This document shows positions 3,200-63,503 of a stretch of DNA of 64,000 nt, piece by piece. The DNA comes from Mycolicibacterium rufum (GTDB taxonomy: Bacteria; Actinomycetota; Actinomycetes; Mycobacteriales; Mycobacteriaceae). Each line of letters opens with the position of its first letter. Positions within the stretch are counted from its first letter, which is position 1. The stretch lies in the NCBI RefSeq assembly GCF_022374875.2, contig NZ_CP092427.2, positions 1,116,001-1,180,000 of the forward strand. The letters are read 5' to 3'. A program made the translations under genes and the position numbers. The notes below the pieces were generated by a model, which saw nothing but the letters and a program-made list of their open reading frames with translations, had not been told where the DNA came from and ran no database searches.

Positions 3200-3283
3200 C
3201 GCCCCAAAAGTTAGCCGTCCCCAAACAAGATCGTCGGACTTCTGACGCTGTCCGCGCCGGGCGTTTTTGTCGGTTGTCGAATG

Positions 3284-3289
3284 TATGTT
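3284..3289 (+). promoter_or_regulatory. -10 element TATGTT of a leaderless start
   Basis: TATGTT lies exactly 6 nt before ATG 3296, the geometry of mycobacterial leaderless transcripts. It supports 3296 rather than the in-frame ATG at 3281 as the start of the interrupted DUF222 gene. Confidence 0.4.
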
Positions 3290-3295
3290 CGAGTC

Positions 3296-3485
3296 ATGTC
3301 GGGGACGGATCTGCGGGCCGCAGTCGCAGCGGTGGCGGCCGCGGTCGACACCCTGGTCGGCTGCGGGGCCGCTGATCTGGCCACCCGCGCCGAGCTGATC
3401 GACGTGCTCGATGAGCTCGAAACCGTGGGGTGCCGGCTGCCCGCGATCCGGCACCGGCTGTTGGCGCGGCTGCAGGTCGAGACCA
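3296..3485 (+). pseudogene. DUF222/HNH endonuclease-like gene, 5' fragment
   Basis: This is the N-terminal part of a 13E12-type DUF222 protein. The segment ELIDVLDELETVGCRL and the following AIRHRLLARLQVET are characteristic. The frame is broken at 3485 by the IS256-family insertion and resumes at 6483 as TPQQLGAKNWKDV, so the junction is exact once the 8-bp duplication is removed. Relatives usually begin MFES. Here ATG TTC GAG TCA is present at 3285 but out of frame by one base relative to MSGTDLR, so an additional one-base loss near 3294 is possible. DUF222/HNH genes are multicopy in mycobacteria. Confidence 0.85.
3478..3485. repeat. 8-bp target-site duplication (CGAGACCA), left
   Basis: CGAGACCA directly abuts the left end of IS256 copy 1 and is repeated exactly at 6475-6482 on its other side. 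An 8-9 bp duplication is normal for IS256-family insertion. Confidence 0.9.
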
Positions 3486-3520
3486 GGACTTGTCAAGATT
3501 TCTGTGTATGTGGCGGTGGT

Positions 3521-4052
3521 CTACAGGTAGGGGTTGATGCGTTCGGGGTAGTTCAGGACGAGGGATCCGAGTGCTTGTTTCCAGCCGTTGGTGCGGGCTC
3601 CTTCGACGAGGCGGGTGTGGCGGGAGCGGTCTCCGGTGGCGAGGGGGTCGTCGATGTATCTCTGGCGTTCTCGGGCGCGTTTGTCTTCGATGTTGCAGAT
3701 CGCCAGCCACAGCAGTTTGACCGCGGCGGCGTCGTTAGGGAAGTGCCCGCGGTTTTTGATGATCTTGCGCAGTTGATAGTTCAGCGATTCGATCGCGTTG
3801 GTGGTGTAGATGATCCGCCGCAGCTCCGGCGGGAACGCCAGGAACGGGATGAACCGCTCCCACGCGTTACGCCACGCGATCACTGTCGTCGGGTTCGACT
3901 GTCCTAGAGTGGAATTGGCGAACTCTTCGAACGCCTCGGTCGCGGCGTCGACGGTCGGGGCGGTGTAGACGGTTTTCAATGCCGCGGCGATCGCCTTGCG
4001 CTGACCATAGGAGACGAACCGCATCGAGTTGCGGATCAGATGCACCACGCAG
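3521..4052 (-). pseudogene. IS256-family transposase, 3' fragment (copy 1)
   Basis: This segment matches the intact transposase of copy 2 from CVVHLIRNSMRF to the C-terminal NYPERINPYL. It contains the TTNAIESLN motif that carries the catalytic Glu of the DDE triad. It is separated from the N-terminal part, which holds both catalytic Asp residues, by the IS110-family insertion at 4053-5605, so this copy cannot make a working enzyme. Confidence 0.9.
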
Positions 4053-4137
4053 ACTCCCGCTGTCAACCTTTCATCGTGGACGTGTTTGGTCGCCGCGACT
4101 GACTCGGTTTGCTCAGCGCGGTCGTGGGGAGGGCGGA

Positions 4138-5358
4138 CTATGCCGCGGTGGTGCGGTGGTGGATGACCGGGTCGTAGAGGGTGTGATCGTGCCAGCAGCG
4201 CCACAGAATGCGGCACCAGCGCGCACCCAGGCCACGCAGAGCGCGGTGGTGTGGTTGGCCGGCGGCGCGGGCGTGTTCGTAGATGTCGGCCGACCATGGG
4301 TCCTCACGGACGGCGACGAACATCCACCAGTCGATGGCGTGGCGCATTCGCCGGTTGGCGGCGTAGCGGAACCTCACCTGACGGGTGCGCCCGGAGGCCT
4401 TGGTGACCGGAGCCAAGCCGGTCTCGGCCAACAACGACGGCGCCGATGGGAAACGGCTGCGCTGTTCACCCATTTCGGAGATTAATACGCCGGCGGTGAC
4501 GGGACCGATACCAGGGAAGCTGGTGAAGATCGGAGTGTCCGGGTGCATGTCGAGCAACTCGCCCAGCCGCTTGTCGTGGGCTCGCAGGTGAGTGTTGAGT
4601 AGCGCGAGCTGTTCTGTGAATGCTTTGGCCGCCAACGCTTTACCGGCGACGGTTCCTTCACTGGCCGACAACAGATGAGGCTGCATCCGGGCGATGAGCG
4701 TCTCAGGTTTCTGCCGGCCACTGTAGCCGTGTCGGCCGGTGAATCCACCCATTCGTCTCGTCGTGACCCTGCTCGCCTGCGCGGGAGTGGGAAAGGTCCG
4801 GATGAACGCCAGGGTGATGTCACGGTCCAACGAGGAGAACAGGTGCAAAGGTGCGGGGTGGTAGGCCTCCAAGATCGACCGCAGCCGATTTTCGGTATCC
4901 ACCTGCATATCCAGGATGCGCTGACGATCCCGGCTGACCGCGATCAGCTCGGCCAATACCGGCGACGCAACAGCCAACGGCCGCCACTGGGCATATTGGT
5001 GACGCAACGTGTCGGCCAAAACGTAGGCATCGAACTCGTCGGACTTGGCCGCCGCCATCCGATACCGTTCACGTGCACGCGCCGAGATCTTCGGTGACAC
5101 GCAATAGATTTCAGCGCTACAGTGCTGTTGCAGATGCTCGACAAGCAAGCCCTCGGCGCGTTCGATGGCGATACGCACCGAGCCAGTCAGTGAGGCGATC
5201 ACCTCGACCAATATCGTCAAACCGTCGACGGTGTGCGCGATCTTTCGGCTGAGAAGCTGCCCGCCGCGGTCGTCGAGGACGCAGAGGTAATGGGAGCGTC
5301 CGCCCCAATCAATGCCGCACCAGAAACGACTTGCACCGTCCGGACTATCCTGATTCAT
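4138..5358 (-). CDS. IS110-family DEDD transposase
   Basis: This 406-residue protein is an IS110-type recombinase. The N-terminal RuvC-like domain shows Asp17 in GIDWGG, Glu66 in AIERAEG, and Asp107/Asp110 in KSDEFDAYVLAD, the DEDD set of the family. The C-terminal Tnp domain has FPGIGPVTAGVLISEMG and a downstream ETGLAPVTKASGR segment, where the family's catalytic Ser lies. Length is normal and no lesion is seen. ATG 5358 was chosen because the catalytic domain starts 12 residues later. The frame is open far upstream through the element's leader into the IS256 remnant, so read-through translation is possible but the extra residues look non-coding. Confidence 0.92.
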   Translation of the reverse strand: MNQDSPDGASRFWCGIDWGGRSHYLCVLDDRGGQLLSRKIAHTVDGLTILVEVIASLTGSVRIAIERAEGLLVEHLQQHCSAEIYCVSPKISARARERYRMAAAKSDEFDAYVLADTLRHQYAQWRPLAVASPVLAELIAVSRDRQRILDMQVDTENRLRSILEAYHPAPLHLFSSLDRDITLAFIRTFPTPAQASRVTTRRMGGFTGRHGYSGRQKPETLIARMQPHLLSASEGTVAGKALAAKAFTEQLALLNTHLRAHDKRLGELLDMHPDTPIFTSFPGIGPVTAGVLISEMGEQRSRFPSAPSLLAETGLAPVTKASGRTRQVRFRYAANRRMRHAIDWWMFVAVREDPWSADIYEHARAAGQPHHRALRGLGARWCRILWRCWHDHTLYDPVIHHRTTAA

Positions 5359-5603
5359 TGCAGTCAGATCCCCTTCGATCCGAAGATTCACGCTGCAATG
5401 TGCGGGGCGTGCCCGGAACCTCATCTCGGCACTCGCCGCTGATACCGGTGGTGCTGCTCTCGCTGGCCGGTCCAAGCCCCGCAGCCACCACGGGCGGACA
5501 GGTCTGCATGTGGACCTCGAAGGTGACGCGTTTGCACAGGTCCTGCCCGTGGTGGTGCAGGTGAACGCCGAGACCATCCCGGCCCACCCATTGTTAATAG
5601 ATG
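5359..5603 (-). ncRNA. Putative bridge RNA region of the IS110-family element
   Basis: IS110 relatives encode a guide (bridge) RNA between the left end and the transposase. This 245-nt leader contains a perfect 11-bp stem (5485-5495 with 5545-5555). Its internal loop includes TGCAGACCT (minus strand, 5508-5500), identical to the target sequence left of and including the CT core. A second loop contains CAGCGGCGAGT (5441-5431), close to the right end CAGCGGGAGT, and AGATGAG (5426-5420), the exact complement of CT plus the left end CATCT. These look like donor and target guides. The two target-guide strands appear in an order I could not reconcile with the known IS621 layout. RNA ends are not defined. 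Confidence 0.55.
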
Positions 5604-5605
5604 AG

Positions 5606-6438
5606 GTCTGCACCGTGGTCTGCGGCCAGGTCGCCTCGACGGCTTCGGCGAAACCGGTCAGCCCGTCGGTGCACACGATCAGGATGTCCTTGACGCCACG
5701 GTTGGCCAGCTCGGCGCATACCCCGGCCCAGAACTTCGCCCCCTCATGGGCGGTCACCCAGATCCCCAGCACGTGCCGGATCCCATCGAGATCGACACCG
5801 ACGGCGATGTGGGCGGCTCGGTTCTTCACCTGGTGACCGTCGCGGATCTTGATGACCAGAGCGTCGAGGTAAACGATCGGATACAGCTCCTCAAGGGGGC
5901 GTTTCTGCCACTGGGTGACCTCCTCGAGCACCGCGTCGGTGATCCGCGAGATCGTGTCGTGGGACAGCTCGGTGCCGATCGTGGTGGCCAGATGATGCTG
6001 GATATCGCGGATCGTCATCCCGCCGGCGTAGAGCGAAATGATCATGTCGTCCAGACCGCCCAGGCGCCGCGAGCCCTTCGGGACCAGGGTCGGGGTGAAG
6101 CTGCCGTCCCGGTCGCGCGGGATCGCCAACCCCACGTCGCCGACCTCGCTGGCGACCGTCTTGGACGTGAACCCGTTGCGAGCATTGGGCAGCTCACGCC
6201 CAACGGGATCACCCTTGTCGTATCCGAGGTGATCGGTCAGCTCAGCAGCCAACCCGCGCTCGAGCACCGCTTTGACCATCTCGGGCAGAAACCCACCCTG
6301 ACCGGTCAACTGCAGCTGGCCCGCATCGATCTTGGCCAGCACGTCATCGAGAACACCTGCGGACTTCAACGCCTCTACGGCATCAGCCCCCGACATCGGC
6401 TCGTCAGTGGTCACATCCATCGATACTGCTCCATCCAT
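5606..6438 (-). pseudogene. IS256-family transposase, 5' fragment (copy 1)
   Basis: The segment encodes the N-terminal part of the transposase from MDGAVSMDVTTDEPM to VEATWPQTTVQT. It includes both catalytic Asp motifs (YLDALVIKI and IVCTDGLTGF). It ends at the IS110 insertion. One missense difference from copy 2 is seen (FTSKT here, FTPKT there). The frame continues by chance into the IS110-family transposase, giving an open frame of 766 codons. Confidence 0.9.
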
Positions 6439-6474
6439 CAGCAGCCACAGCTACACAAACCATCTGACACGCTC

Positions 6475-6482
6475 CGAGACCA
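6475..6482. repeat. 8-bp target-site duplication (CGAGACCA), right
   Basis: Second copy of CGAGACCA, immediately outside the right end of IS256 copy 1. Deleting the element plus one copy restores the DUF222 reading frame exactly. Confidence 0.9.
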
Positions 6483-7796
6483 CCCCCCAGCAGCTGGGCG
6501 CCAAGAACTGGAAAGACGTCCTGACGACCCGATGGCGCATCTCGTCGACGGAGGCGCACCGCCGGCTGACCGACGCGGCGCTGCTCGCCCCCCGCCAACC
6601 GGTCACCGGACCACCCCTACCCCCGGTACTGCACGCCACCGCCATCGCCCAACAGCAGGGCCTGATCACCGCCGAACACGTCACCGTGATCCGCAAATCG
6701 GTGGACAAACTCCCCGGCTTCGTCGACGCGGTGACCCGCGACCAGTTCGAGGTCGACCTGGTCCGGGTCGCGGTCGGAGTCGGCCCCAAAGAAACTCCAA
6801 GACACCGCCGATCTCCGGCTGTTCCTGCTCGACCAGGACGGCCCCGAACCCGACGACACCGACCGCGCCCGCCACCGCGCGGTGACCAAACACAAACAGC
6901 GCCGCGACGCGATGACCGACCTTTCCGCGACCCTGACCCCCGAGGCGTGGGCGGTATGGGAAGTCCTGTTCGCCAAATACGCCGCCCCGGGCATGTGCAA
7001 CCCCGACGACCCCGAACCCTGCACCTCCGGCACACCGACCCAAGCCCAGATCGACAACGATCACCGCAGCCTGGCCCAACGCCAACACGACGCCCTACTC
7101 GCCATCGGCCGCATCGCCCTGACGAGCGGCGAACCCGGCCAACTCAACGGGCTACCGGTGTCGGTGATCATCCGCACCACCCTCCAAGACCTGGAATCCC
7201 GCGCCGGGATCGGGGTCACCGGCGGCGGCACCCGCATCCCCATCAAAGACGTCATCCGGATGGCCGCCCACGCCAACCACTACCTCGCCGTCTTCGACAA
7301 AGCGACCGGCTCCGCCCTGGACCTGTTCCGCAGCCGCCGGGTCGCCTCCCCCGCGCAGCGCATCATGCTCATCGCCCGCGACGGCGGCTGCACCAAACCC
7401 TGCTGCACCGTCGGCGCCTACGGCTCCCAGGCCCACCACGCCACCCAAGACTGGGCCCACGGCGGCCTCACCAACGTCGACCACCTCGGCCTGGCCTGCC
7501 CACCCGACAACCGCTCCGTCAAAGACGGCGGCTGGAGCACCGCCATGAACACCCGCCACGAAGTCGAATGGACCCCACCCCCACACCTCGACACCGGCCA
7601 AACCCGCATCAACACCTACCACCGCCCCGAAGCCCTCCTCCGACCACCCGACGAGCCGGCGCGTCAGGAGCATGGGGCCGCCGCACCGGCCGAGTCGACC
7701 GCGTCGGCCGAGCCGACCGACGCAGAACCTTCCACCTCAACCGACGACCCCGGCGAACCCGGCGGACCCGCACCCCCCGACAACGAGGCGGCCTGA
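6483..7796 (+). pseudogene. DUF222/HNH endonuclease-like gene, 3' fragment with frameshift
   Basis: After the IS256 copy the gene continues in frame as TPQQLGAKNWKDV and runs to VAVGVGPKE. There an extra A in the run at 6792-6794 shifts the frame. From there a different frame reads LQDTADLRLFLLDQDGPEP and continues to the end. This C-terminal part has the HNH-type segment: RDGGCTKPCCTVGAYG, then HHATQDWAHGGLTN, then LACPPDNR. A Pro/Glu-rich tail closes it. The gene is therefore doubly inactivated. The IS-independent frameshift shows either earlier decay or relaxed selection after insertion. Intact relatives are about 450-500 residues. Confidence 0.88.
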
Positions 7797-9651: not shown

Positions 9652-11087
9652 GAGCGTGTCAGATGGTTTGTGTAGCTGTGGCTGCTGATGGATGGAGCAG
9701 TATCGATGGATGTGACCACTGACGAGCCGATGTCGGGGGCTGATGCCGTAGAGGCGTTGAAGTCCGCAGGTGTTCTCGATGACGTGCTGGCCAAGATCGA
9801 TGCGGGCCAGCTGCAGTTGACCGGTCAGGGTGGGTTTCTGCCCGAGATGGTCAAAGCGGTGCTCGAGCGCGGGTTGGCTGCTGAGCTGACCGATCACCTC
9901 GGATACGACAAGGGTGATCCCGTTGGGCGTGAGCTGCCCAATGCTCGCAACGGGTTCACGCCCAAGACGGTCGCCAGCGAGGTCGGCGACGTGGGGTTGG
10001 CGATCCCGCGCGACCGGGACGGCAGCTTCACCCCGACCCTGGTCCCGAAGGGCTCGCGGCGCCTGGGCGGTCTGGACGACATGATCATTTCGCTCTACGC
10101 CGGCGGGATGACGATCCGCGATATCCAGCATCATCTGGCCACCACGATCGGCACCGAGCTGTCCCACGACACGATCTCGCGGATCACCGACGCGGTGCTC
10201 GAGGAGGTCACCCAGTGGCAGAAACGCCCCCTTGAGGAGCTGTATCCGATCGTTTACCTCGACGCTCTGGTCATCAAGATCCGCGACGGTCACCAGGTGA
10301 AGAACCGAGCCGCCCACATCGCCGTCGGTGTCGATCTCGACGGGATCCGGCACGTGCTGGGGATCTGGGTGACCGCCCATGAGGGCGCGAAGTTCTGGGC
10401 CGGGGTATGCGCCGAGCTGGCCAACCGTGGCGTCAAGGACATCCTGATCGTATGCACCGACGGGCTGACCGGTTTCGCCGAAGCCGTCGAGGCGACCTGG
10501 CCGCAGACCACGGTGCAGACCTGCGTGGTGCATCTGATCCGCAACTCGATGCGGTTCGTCTCCTATGGTCAGCGCAAGGCGATCGCCGCGGCATTGAAAA
10601 CCGTCTACACCGCCCCGACCGTCGACGCCGCGACCGAGGCGTTCGAAGAGTTCGCCAATTCCACTCTAGGACAGTCGAACCCGACGACAGTGATCGCGTG
10701 GCGTAACGCGTGGGAGCGGTTCATCCCGTTCCTGGCGTTCCCGCCGGAGCTGCGGCGGATCATCTACACCACCAACGCGATCGAATCGCTGAACTATCAA
10801 CTGCGCAAGATCATCAAAAACCGCGGACACTTCCCTAACGACGCCGCCGCGGTCAAACTGCTGTGGCTGGCGATCTGCAACATCGAAGACAAACGCGCCC
10901 GAGAACGCCAGAGATACATCGACGACCCCCTCGCCACCGGAGACCGCTCCCGCCACACCCGCCTCGTCGAAGGAGCCCGCACCAACGGCTGGAAACAAGC
11001 ACTCGGATCCCTCGTCCTGAACTACCCCGAACGCATCAACCCCTACCTGTAGACCACCGCCACATACACAGAAATCTTGACAAGTCC
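9652..11087 (+). mobile_element. IS256-family element, copy 2, intact
   Basis: This complete 1,436-bp element has imperfect terminal inverted repeats (GAGCGTGTCAGATGG at 9652; the complement of GGACTTGTCAAGATT at 11087). It carries one transposase gene with no visible defect. It is inverted relative to copy 1, 3.2 kb away. Target duplications GAATTCAT flank it. It lies in the divergent promoter region between the 135-residue/hydrolase operon and the LysR gene; without it the two starts would be about 190 bp apart. Confidence 0.95.
9688..11052 (+). CDS. IS256-family (Mutator-like) DDE transposase
   Basis: The 454-residue enzyme catalyses cut-and-paste or copy-out transposition of its element. 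The Mutator-type core is clear: an N-terminal helical DNA-binding region with GLAAELTDHLGY, first catalytic Asp in YLDALVIKI, second Asp in VCTDGLTGF, a CVVHLIRN motif, and the catalytic Glu in TTNAIESLNYQLRK. Length and motifs match active family members. It may also supply transposase in trans to the ends of copy 1, which are intact. The downstream inverted repeat begins within about 10 bp of the stop. Confidence 0.95.
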   Translation: MDGAVSMDVTTDEPMSGADAVEALKSAGVLDDVLAKIDAGQLQLTGQGGFLPEMVKAVLERGLAAELTDHLGYDKGDPVGRELPNARNGFTPKTVASEVGDVGLAIPRDRDGSFTPTLVPKGSRRLGGLDDMIISLYAGGMTIRDIQHHLATTIGTELSHDTISRITDAVLEEVTQWQKRPLEELYPIVYLDALVIKIRDGHQVKNRAAHIAVGVDLDGIRHVLGIWVTAHEGAKFWAGVCAELANRGVKDILIVCTDGLTGFAEAVEATWPQTTVQTCVVHLIRNSMRFVSYGQRKAIAAALKTVYTAPTVDAATEAFEEFANSTLGQSNPTTVIAWRNAWERFIPFLAFPPELRRIIYTTNAIESLNYQLRKIIKNRGHFPNDAAAVKLLWLAICNIEDKRARERQRYIDDPLATGDRSRHTRLVEGARTNGWKQALGSLVLNYPERINPYL

Positions 11088-12315: not shown

Positions 12316-12388
12316 TGGAGCTAAGGGGATTCGAACCCCTGACCCCCACACTGCCAGTGTGGTGCGCTACCAACTGCGCCATAGCCCC
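12316..12388 (-). tRNA. tRNA-Ala (anticodon GGC)
   Basis: The minus strand folds as a cloverleaf: acceptor GGGGCTA with TAGCTCC, D-arm GCGCAGTTGGTAGCGC, anticodon loop CTGGCAG (GGC), and T-arm GGGGTTCGAATCCCC. The G3-U70 pair in the acceptor stem is the alanine identity element. The genome continues with CC and then C, so the 3' CCA is completed after transcription. Confidence 0.97.
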
Positions 12389-63132: not shown

Positions 63133-63136
63133 TTTC

Positions 63137-63503
63137 GGTGGAGCTGCCGGGAATCGAACCCGGGTCCTACGGCATTCCCTCAAGGCTTCTCCGTGCGCAG
63201 TCCGCTAGGTCTCTACTCGGATCTCCTGATCACGCGAACAAGTCAGGATGACGATCCCAGTCGCTGTTTGATGTCCCCACGGGTCCCGCGACCGAACCCG
63301 TGGGTGGGTCCCTCTAGCTGACGCCAGGGTCCGGGTCGAGGGCACTCCCGGTCTGACGGATTAGCTTCGCTTAGGCAGCGAGAGCGTAATCGCGCTGATT
63401 GGAATCGGCGCTTAATTGGTTGCAACGACGCTTACGGTGGTCATTTGCCTGCACCGGCACGCTTCCCTTGATTCGATGCGCGAAGTCGAAACCGTTCAGC
63501 CCC
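63137..63503 (-). ncRNA. ssrA: Transfer-messenger RNA (tmRNA)
   Basis: The minus-strand RNA (about 367 nt) has a tRNA-like domain: 5' GGGGCTGAACGGTTTCGAC and 3' GGGTTCGATTCCCGGCAGCTCC with ACC. A G-U pair at the third acceptor position is the alanine identity element. The tag frame at 63371-63409 encodes ADSNQRDYALAA and stops with TAA. tmRNA rescues stalled ribosomes and marks incomplete proteins for proteolysis. The tag differs from the M. tuberculosis tag (ADSHQRDYALAA) by Asn for His. The length matches other mycobacteria. Confidence 0.97.

Follow-up and report, generated by a model that had tools for sequence, protein, structure and literature searches.

ISEc21, a member of the IS110 group, targets the codons around the second D of IS3 transposases (PMC11187229). 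Both ISEc21 transposition and IS621 recombination need RNA (PMC11187229, PMC11208160, PMC11208158). In the IS1111 group, the RNA is located downstream and its guide order is reversed.

Here we analyze an IS110-family element in a 64,000-nucleotide stretch of the Mycolicibacterium rufum genome, referred to below as the window. Judged from its sequence, it is very probably an IS110-group insertion sequence that carries a bridge RNA with the IS621 order of guides and targets Mutator transposase genes between their Q-T/R and C-x-x-H codons. We infer that it is a specialized parasite of another transposon.

The element and its insertion site

The element occupies positions 4053 to 5603 of the window on the minus strand (1551 bp), between two core dinucleotides, as defined by comparison with an empty site. 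Its transposase gene is also on the minus strand, and the gene it interrupts encodes an IS256/Mutator transposase. The two IS256 arms (3486-4052 and 5604-6474) match the uninterrupted copy as inverted repeats and overlap by exactly 2 nt, so the insertion can be placed at base resolution. Relative to that copy there is one substitution in the 567-bp arm and four in the 871-bp arm. An earlier sequence-only reading of this DNA, which had described an IS110 element at an exactly known site with a CT core at both junctions, is confirmed on both points; the core is AG on the plus strand and CT on the minus strand at either end.

Within the element, the transposase is preceded by 245 nt and followed by 85 nt. 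Its PF01548 (DEDD) and PF02371 domains both score above curated cut-offs. IS621 is the only PDB sequence matched at E <= 0.001 (E 5.4e-6). Residues D17, E66, D107, D110 and Ser322 are invariant across the 16 sequences of alignment A1. S322 aligns with IS621 in a significant stretch, while E66, D107 and D110 fall in a weak one (i-Evalue 73) and D17 is outside the alignment. In naming the DEDD residues and the serine we rely on those IS621 residues that we take to be catalytic, with an offset of 2.

Some features of the surroundings may be mentioned here. Segments 3281-3485 and 6483-7796 appear to be a gene interrupted by IS256; 6882-7796 matches DUF222, and the upstream piece has no Pfam match. 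A 766-aa open frame (4138-6438, minus strand) begins at the IS256 start, continues across the leader and takes in the IS110 transposase; it may be due to chance. Similar fused frames of 754-770 aa are found in the seven copies of the window genome. Most intact relatives listed have frames of 416-426 aa, and two have frames of 509 aa.

Table 1. Coordinates of the element, its predicted RNA and its host, in window positions.
Feature	Position	Strand	Basis or detail
IS110 transposase (recombinase), 406 aa	4138..5358	-	Pfam PF01548 and PF02371
Leader encoding predicted bridge RNA, 245 nt	5359..5603	-	leader alignments, stem counts, guide scoring
Bridge RNA 5' stem-loop	5567..5583	-	of 7 pairs, one with a two-sided change (CG, GC, UA) and three with a one-sided change
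Target-binding loop, outer stem, 5' strand	5540..5555	-	6 of 15 helix pairs changed on both sides
Left target guide UGCAAAC (predicted)	5530..5536	-	guide scoring
Target-binding loop, presumed inner hairpin ACCU-UCG-AGGU	5514..5524	-	92.5% of cells paired
Right target guide CAUGCAG (predicted)	5504..5510	-	pairs with CTGCAT or, by wobble, CTGCGTG
Handshake guide AC	5502..5503	-	complementary to donor positions 7 and 6 (GT); invariant in A3; IS621 scheme
Target-binding loop, outer stem, 3' strand	5485..5499	-	pair counts
Donor-binding loop, outer stem, 5' strand CCGG	5467..5470	-	pattern reading in relatives
Left donor guide CAGCGAGAGC (predicted)	5456..5465	-	8/10 to right end CAGCGGGAGT; assigned by homology to second lineage
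Donor-binding loop, inner hairpin	5429..5454	-	GCAC/GUGC here; GUGC/GCAC in 3 of 4 W leaders, UUGC/GCAC in L108
Right donor guide AGAUGAG (predicted)	5420..5426	-	pattern reading, guide scoring
Handshake guide GU	5418..5419	-	complementary to target positions 7 and 6 (AC); CG in second lineage, target CG
Donor-binding loop, outer stem, 3' strand CCGG	5413..5416	-	pattern reading
TTGACA in right end, 8 nt before core	4061..4066	-	possible -35 box of circle-junction promoter (role inferred)
Left core dinucleotide CT	5604..5605	-	sequence, empty-site comparison
Right core dinucleotide CT	4051..4052	-	sequence, empty-site comparison
IS256/Mutator element carrying the IS110 insertion	3486..6474	.	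8-bp target duplication CGAGACCA at 3478-3485 and 6475-6482
Uninterrupted IS256/Mutator copy	9652..11087	+	8-bp duplication ATGAATTC
Empty target site TGCAGAC-CT-GCGTG, codons V-Q-T-C-V	10514..10527	+	guide rank 1 of 20,239 sites

Copies and relatives

The window genome (G000) contains seven copies of the element that are alike over 1551 bp. Six reside in near-identical IS256 elements, and one (L007) is found at the homologous codon of a divergent Mutator gene, with GT instead of CT at its left junction. Of 396 genomes sampled in the genus, 12, counting the window genome, have relatives in a protein search at E <= 1e-90. In samples of the order, class and phylum, only one genome beyond the genus (G478) carries a relative with more than 50% identity at the cut-offs used; in families f4 and f2, relatives occur in 1 of 17 and 0 of 24 genomes. 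Among the 40 plasmid records listed of 586 matching, at least three exceed 50% identity, and two of these carry the same element. A scan of genome contigs gave nine loci, several of them from the same genomes. A single-protein scan of viral contigs found no relative, nor did phages yield any; an alignment scan of viral contigs returned one 34% relative, which was left out of the analysis.

Copies were listed fully for 13 genomes. Places were picked by patterns in the left end and the leader hairpin, independently of the target, and right ends were located with a pattern that includes CT. Removing eleven loci that repeat a place gave 45 distinct places. Left out of these are the partial loci L039, L040, L041 and L118 (left end unreadable) and L107, which is identical to L106 over the compared 1.9 kb. 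The 45 places comprise 41 of the window's lineage (V) and four of a second lineage (W: L052, L063, L106 and L108), whose transposases share 53-55% protein identity with that of the window. All are from Actinomycetes, mostly mycobacteria. Loci L064 to L072, at about 36% identity, have other left flanks as read by eye, and TTGACA is retained at the right end of the five that were inspected.

Target sites in Mutator transposase genes

Of the 45 distinct copies whose left end and leader can be read, 44 are inserted at the same codon of a Mutator transposase gene, with Q-T/R on one side and C-x-x-H on the other. The left-flank pattern matches 43 of these, and L042 was assigned by eye; in 41 the right flank also starts with C-x-x-H, the right ends of the other three being unreadable. 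When ten flank halves were each compared separately with Pfam, nine matched PF00872: the match stops at profile position 252 in eight left halves and begins at 253 in one right half. For the remaining half, the right flank of L123, there was no Pfam match. Places beyond these ten halves were judged to be Mutator by motif and translation. The target motif lies about 20 residues after a conserved (C/S/T)-D-(G/A) motif.

L123 is the exception. It lies outside a Mutator gene and has a split transposase frame. The guide pairs with its site, CCCAAAC-CT-GCTGT, at six of seven left positions and at positions 8-11, and the site shares CAAAC-CT-GC. Its location, for which no empty site was seen, may result from rearrangement. 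The sequence-only reading had named elements with the same leader at unrelated targets as evidence against it; 44 of the 45 places share one kind of target, and L123 does not.

The core T is present at all 45 left junctions, preceded by C in 33, G in 11 and A in one. Right junctions have CT in 42 of 42 cases, as located by a pattern that itself contains CT. In the 17 distinct V targets with both sides (L123 excluded), positions 3, 4, 6, 7, 9, 10 and 13 are invariant. The third codon positions (2, 5, 8, 11 and 14) all vary, and so do positions 1 and 12. Since the first core base and third codon positions vary and the right guide wobbles, the element should be able to enter, and break, different Mutator transposase genes. 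In genome G320, the left and right flanks of L055/L126, L120, L114 and L115 apparently derive from different Mutator types, which points to recombination between copies.

The consensus TGCARACNTGYRT, itself derived from the targets, has one occurrence in the window, where 0.06 would be expected. In G000 it is found uninterrupted at four places, three in empty Mutator genes and one in another gene that is also empty; the consensus read backwards, as a control, occurs twice. The other gene (L140), the sole non-Mutator exact match in this genome, is a 432-aa open frame with V-Q-T-C. Mutator genes have 25 matches in G000, among which seven belong to the window's IS256 (six occupied), three are of a second Q-T-C type (one occupied), and the six others with a readable motif are Q-R-C types (none occupied), giving seven occupied sites. 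This census leaves out L094 and treats L097 and L105 as fragments of a single gene.

A predicted bridge RNA in the leader

The proposal that the 245-nt leader resembles a bridge RNA is borne out. Target-binding and donor-binding loops are predicted (Table 1), and the two-loop RNA is supported by compensatory changes in its stems. Pair counts were made on alignment A3 (11 leaders, 10 of them distinct; 112 columns; 26 pairs). The longer cross-lineage leader alignment A2 misaligned the donor loop, so this loop was interpreted from patterns in 12 leaders, without scoring against controls. In A3, 96.1% of cells are paired. Seven pairs are changed on both sides; the value for shuffles is 4.3, with 5 of 500 reaching the observed count, and sliding the structure gives 0-3. 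The covariation score is 0.279, compared to 0.140 in shuffles (0 of 500 as high) and at most 0.097 when slid. Further pair types number 12, no higher than in shuffles (13.1).

RNAalifold recovers the 5' stem-loop and the outer stem of the target loop. Other inner pairs replace the presumed inner hairpin, which shows zero compensatory changes and is absent from the consensus. The outer target-loop stem also appears in single-sequence folds, and the donor loop often folds differently there. Donor-loop outer stems in relatives read CCGG/CCGG, CUGG/CCAG and UCGG/CCGA, with CCGG/UCGG in L038. An Rfam scan of the window at gathering scores returned only tmRNA and tRNA, with nothing in the leader; the tmRNA (63136-63503) and the tRNA (12316-12388, minus strand) are ordinary. 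Counting duplicate loci, 50 of the 53 listed right ends contain TTGACA, as do the five outgroup loci inspected. A search by eye for a -10 box at the circle junction gave none that was convincing.

Three strings quoted in the sequence-only reading are all found in the leader: CAGCGGCGAGT at 5431-5441, AGATGAG at 5420-5426 and TGCAGACCT at 5500-5508. Their roles have fared differently. AGATGAG, noted there as a complement of a donor end, is supported as the right donor guide. CAGCGGCGAGT had been taken for a donor guide and is instead part of the donor-loop inner hairpin; the W donor guide corresponds by homology to 5456-5465, which fits at eight of ten positions here. TGCAGACCT had been taken for the left target guide and is mostly right guide plus handshake bases. 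The order of target guides, described as differing from IS621, is that of IS621, with the left guide at 5530-5536 and the right guide at 5504-5510. A further candidate for the left target guide, GGACCU, was dropped, as it is stem.

Guide-target fit in two lineages

Predicted guides of the V lineage are UGCAAAC on the left (CGCAAAC in G320) and CAUGCAG on the right, with the handshake AC. The corresponding W sequences are GGCAGCG (GGCAGGG in L063), GCGGCAG and AC. The donor-loop handshake is GU in 41 places (V, target AC) and CG in four (W, target CG), complementary to the target each time. The AC handshake is complementary to the donor-end GT found in the 53 right ends listed.

On the true empty site the V guide scores 12.5 of 14 and ranks first of 20,239 T-core sites in the window, where the next best scores 11; this is not an independent test, because the guides were assigned with V targets in view. 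The W lineage comes nearer to one, its guide positions having been taken from the alignment. On two W targets the W guide scores 12.5 and 13 of 14, and on ten V targets 6-8; the V guide scores 9-12.5 on the same ten and 8-9 on W targets. Each lineage's predicted guides are thus found to fit the codons of its own hosts, and the handshake bases change with them. The covariation rests on few independent events, because only two lineages differ clearly in guide.

The fit is uneven. The left guide of L063 itself has one mismatch and scores one less, and that of L042 fits at three of seven positions as read. The targets of L051 and L053 score 9.5 and 9, values reached by 68 and 147 background sites. 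In the 14 places of G320 the left guide pairs at five of seven positions, or six at L123. Position 5 is an A-C mismatch in 12 of the 17 distinct V targets. At positions 11 and 12, G-U wobble lets the right guide pair with either of the usual forms. The left donor guide has two mismatches in ten in V; in W it pairs at 11 of 11 in three of four leaders, and L108 starts with CTAG instead of CCAG. At the core positions the left target guide has GC in one lineage and UG in the other, neither of which pairs with the core.

Alternative explanations

If TGCAGACCT, located in the 3' part of the target loop, were the left target guide, the order would be reversed relative to IS621, as in the IS1111 group. 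On ten V targets outside G320 this strand fits at 5-7 of seven left positions and beats the 5' strand in eight (mean 6.4 versus 5.9). However, it resembles the left target, and fits V targets better, because the half-sites are nearly palindromic. On W targets the equivalent strand fits at 4-5 of seven positions, whereas the 5' strand fits at 6.5-7. Moreover, the AC in the TGCAGACCT strand is invariant in A3 and complementary to the donor-end GT, as a handshake guide would be, and IS1111 elements have their RNA downstream of the transposase, whereas the leader here is upstream. A reversed order is rejected as highly improbable because the W targets fit the 5' strand, with the caveat that two lineages are few. 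It is extremely improbable that the recombinase protein alone chooses the site and that the leader similarity is a by-product. The leader RNA at this locus is predicted from sequence, but guide positions differ with target codons between lineages, the leader stems have compensatory changes, and RNA is required for IS621 recombination and ISEc21 transposition.

A different possibility is that IS256 carried the copies along as hitch-hikers, or that gene conversion spread them, instead of repeated RNA-guided insertion, such that the common site reflects one ancestral event. Six copies do occupy the same site in near-identical IS256 elements, and four copies in genome G140 have one flank type in common. 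The window copy keeps the 8-bp IS256 duplication outside it, and an intact IS256 transposase acting in trans could mobilize this composite. The hybrid flanks of G320 show that copies recombine. Yet among the six IS256 hosts there are 11 substitutions and one indel over about 1.44 kb, and none among the IS110 elements inside them; the same element is also present in the divergent Mutator gene on C2 (L007), and the elements of G004 and G320 are in several different Mutator genes. Because host elements differ and IS110 copies are identical, recent separate insertions are favored over joint spread, and this alternative as a whole is very unlikely. Gene conversion is a possible source of the identical copies.

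Mechanism and comparison with known systems

For an RNA-guided element aimed at Mutator codons, the steps can be sketched by analogy with IS621. The element would excise as a circle whose joined ends form a promoter, and the leader would be transcribed into the bridge RNA. The target and the joined ends would be bound by the two loops of this RNA through base pairing, with strand exchange at the core carried out by the DEDD/serine recombinase. Apparent in the DNA are the ends, the core, a predicted two-loop RNA, and guide and handshake bases whose differences between lineages match those of the targets.

A broader reading is tentative and rather less likely to be correct than its converse. The guide might evolve along the Mutator C-x-x-H codons, with wobble and the free core base falling on variable codon positions. 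Many diverged Mutators would then be entered and curbed, amounting to an RNA-guided check on another transposon family. If the proposed targeting is true, an RNA-guided element can specialize on another transposon by attacking codons that are not easily altered in the prey. These elements also form a natural test bed for bridge RNA rules, with closely similar guides set against 17 distinct natural V targets, a W lineage that addresses this motif through different codons, and a single genome that offers both empty and occupied sites.

The element resembles IS621 (PMC11208160, PMC11208158) in its upstream leader, a 5' stem-loop with two internal loops, the guide order, the handshake guides, and a core with invariant T and variable first base. 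In contrast to IS621, whose left target guide pairs with the core, that of the window element does not; in the same accounts the IS621 target is REP, whereas here it is coding sequence, and the recombinase match is weak (E 5.4e-6). The features of the IS110 group found here are the domains and residues of the recombinase, a predicted two-loop RNA, left guides 5' and right guides 3' (decided by W), and a T-invariant core. The downstream RNA and reversed guides of the IS1111 group are not seen in the window element.

IS4321 and IS5075 are reportedly likewise aimed at another transposon, through Tn21-family terminal repeats. However, they belong to the IS1111 group with RNA downstream, and they target terminal repeats rather than coding sequence. 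No paper in the literature searched combines IS110, bridge RNA and IS256, and among the papers listed by further searches, seen mostly as titles and the first parts of abstracts, none has this target. The main texts of PMC11208160 and PMC11187229 do not mention IS256 or Mutator.

The closest likeness in target choice is to ISEc21. Both are IS110 elements aimed at the transposase codons of another insertion sequence, with IS3 as prey in one case and IS256/Mutator in the other. Because the insertion of ISEc21 into IS3 is already published, the element described here is a new member with new prey. Its RNA-guided mechanism is known; the Mutator prey, and the two lineages that follow it with different codons, look new.
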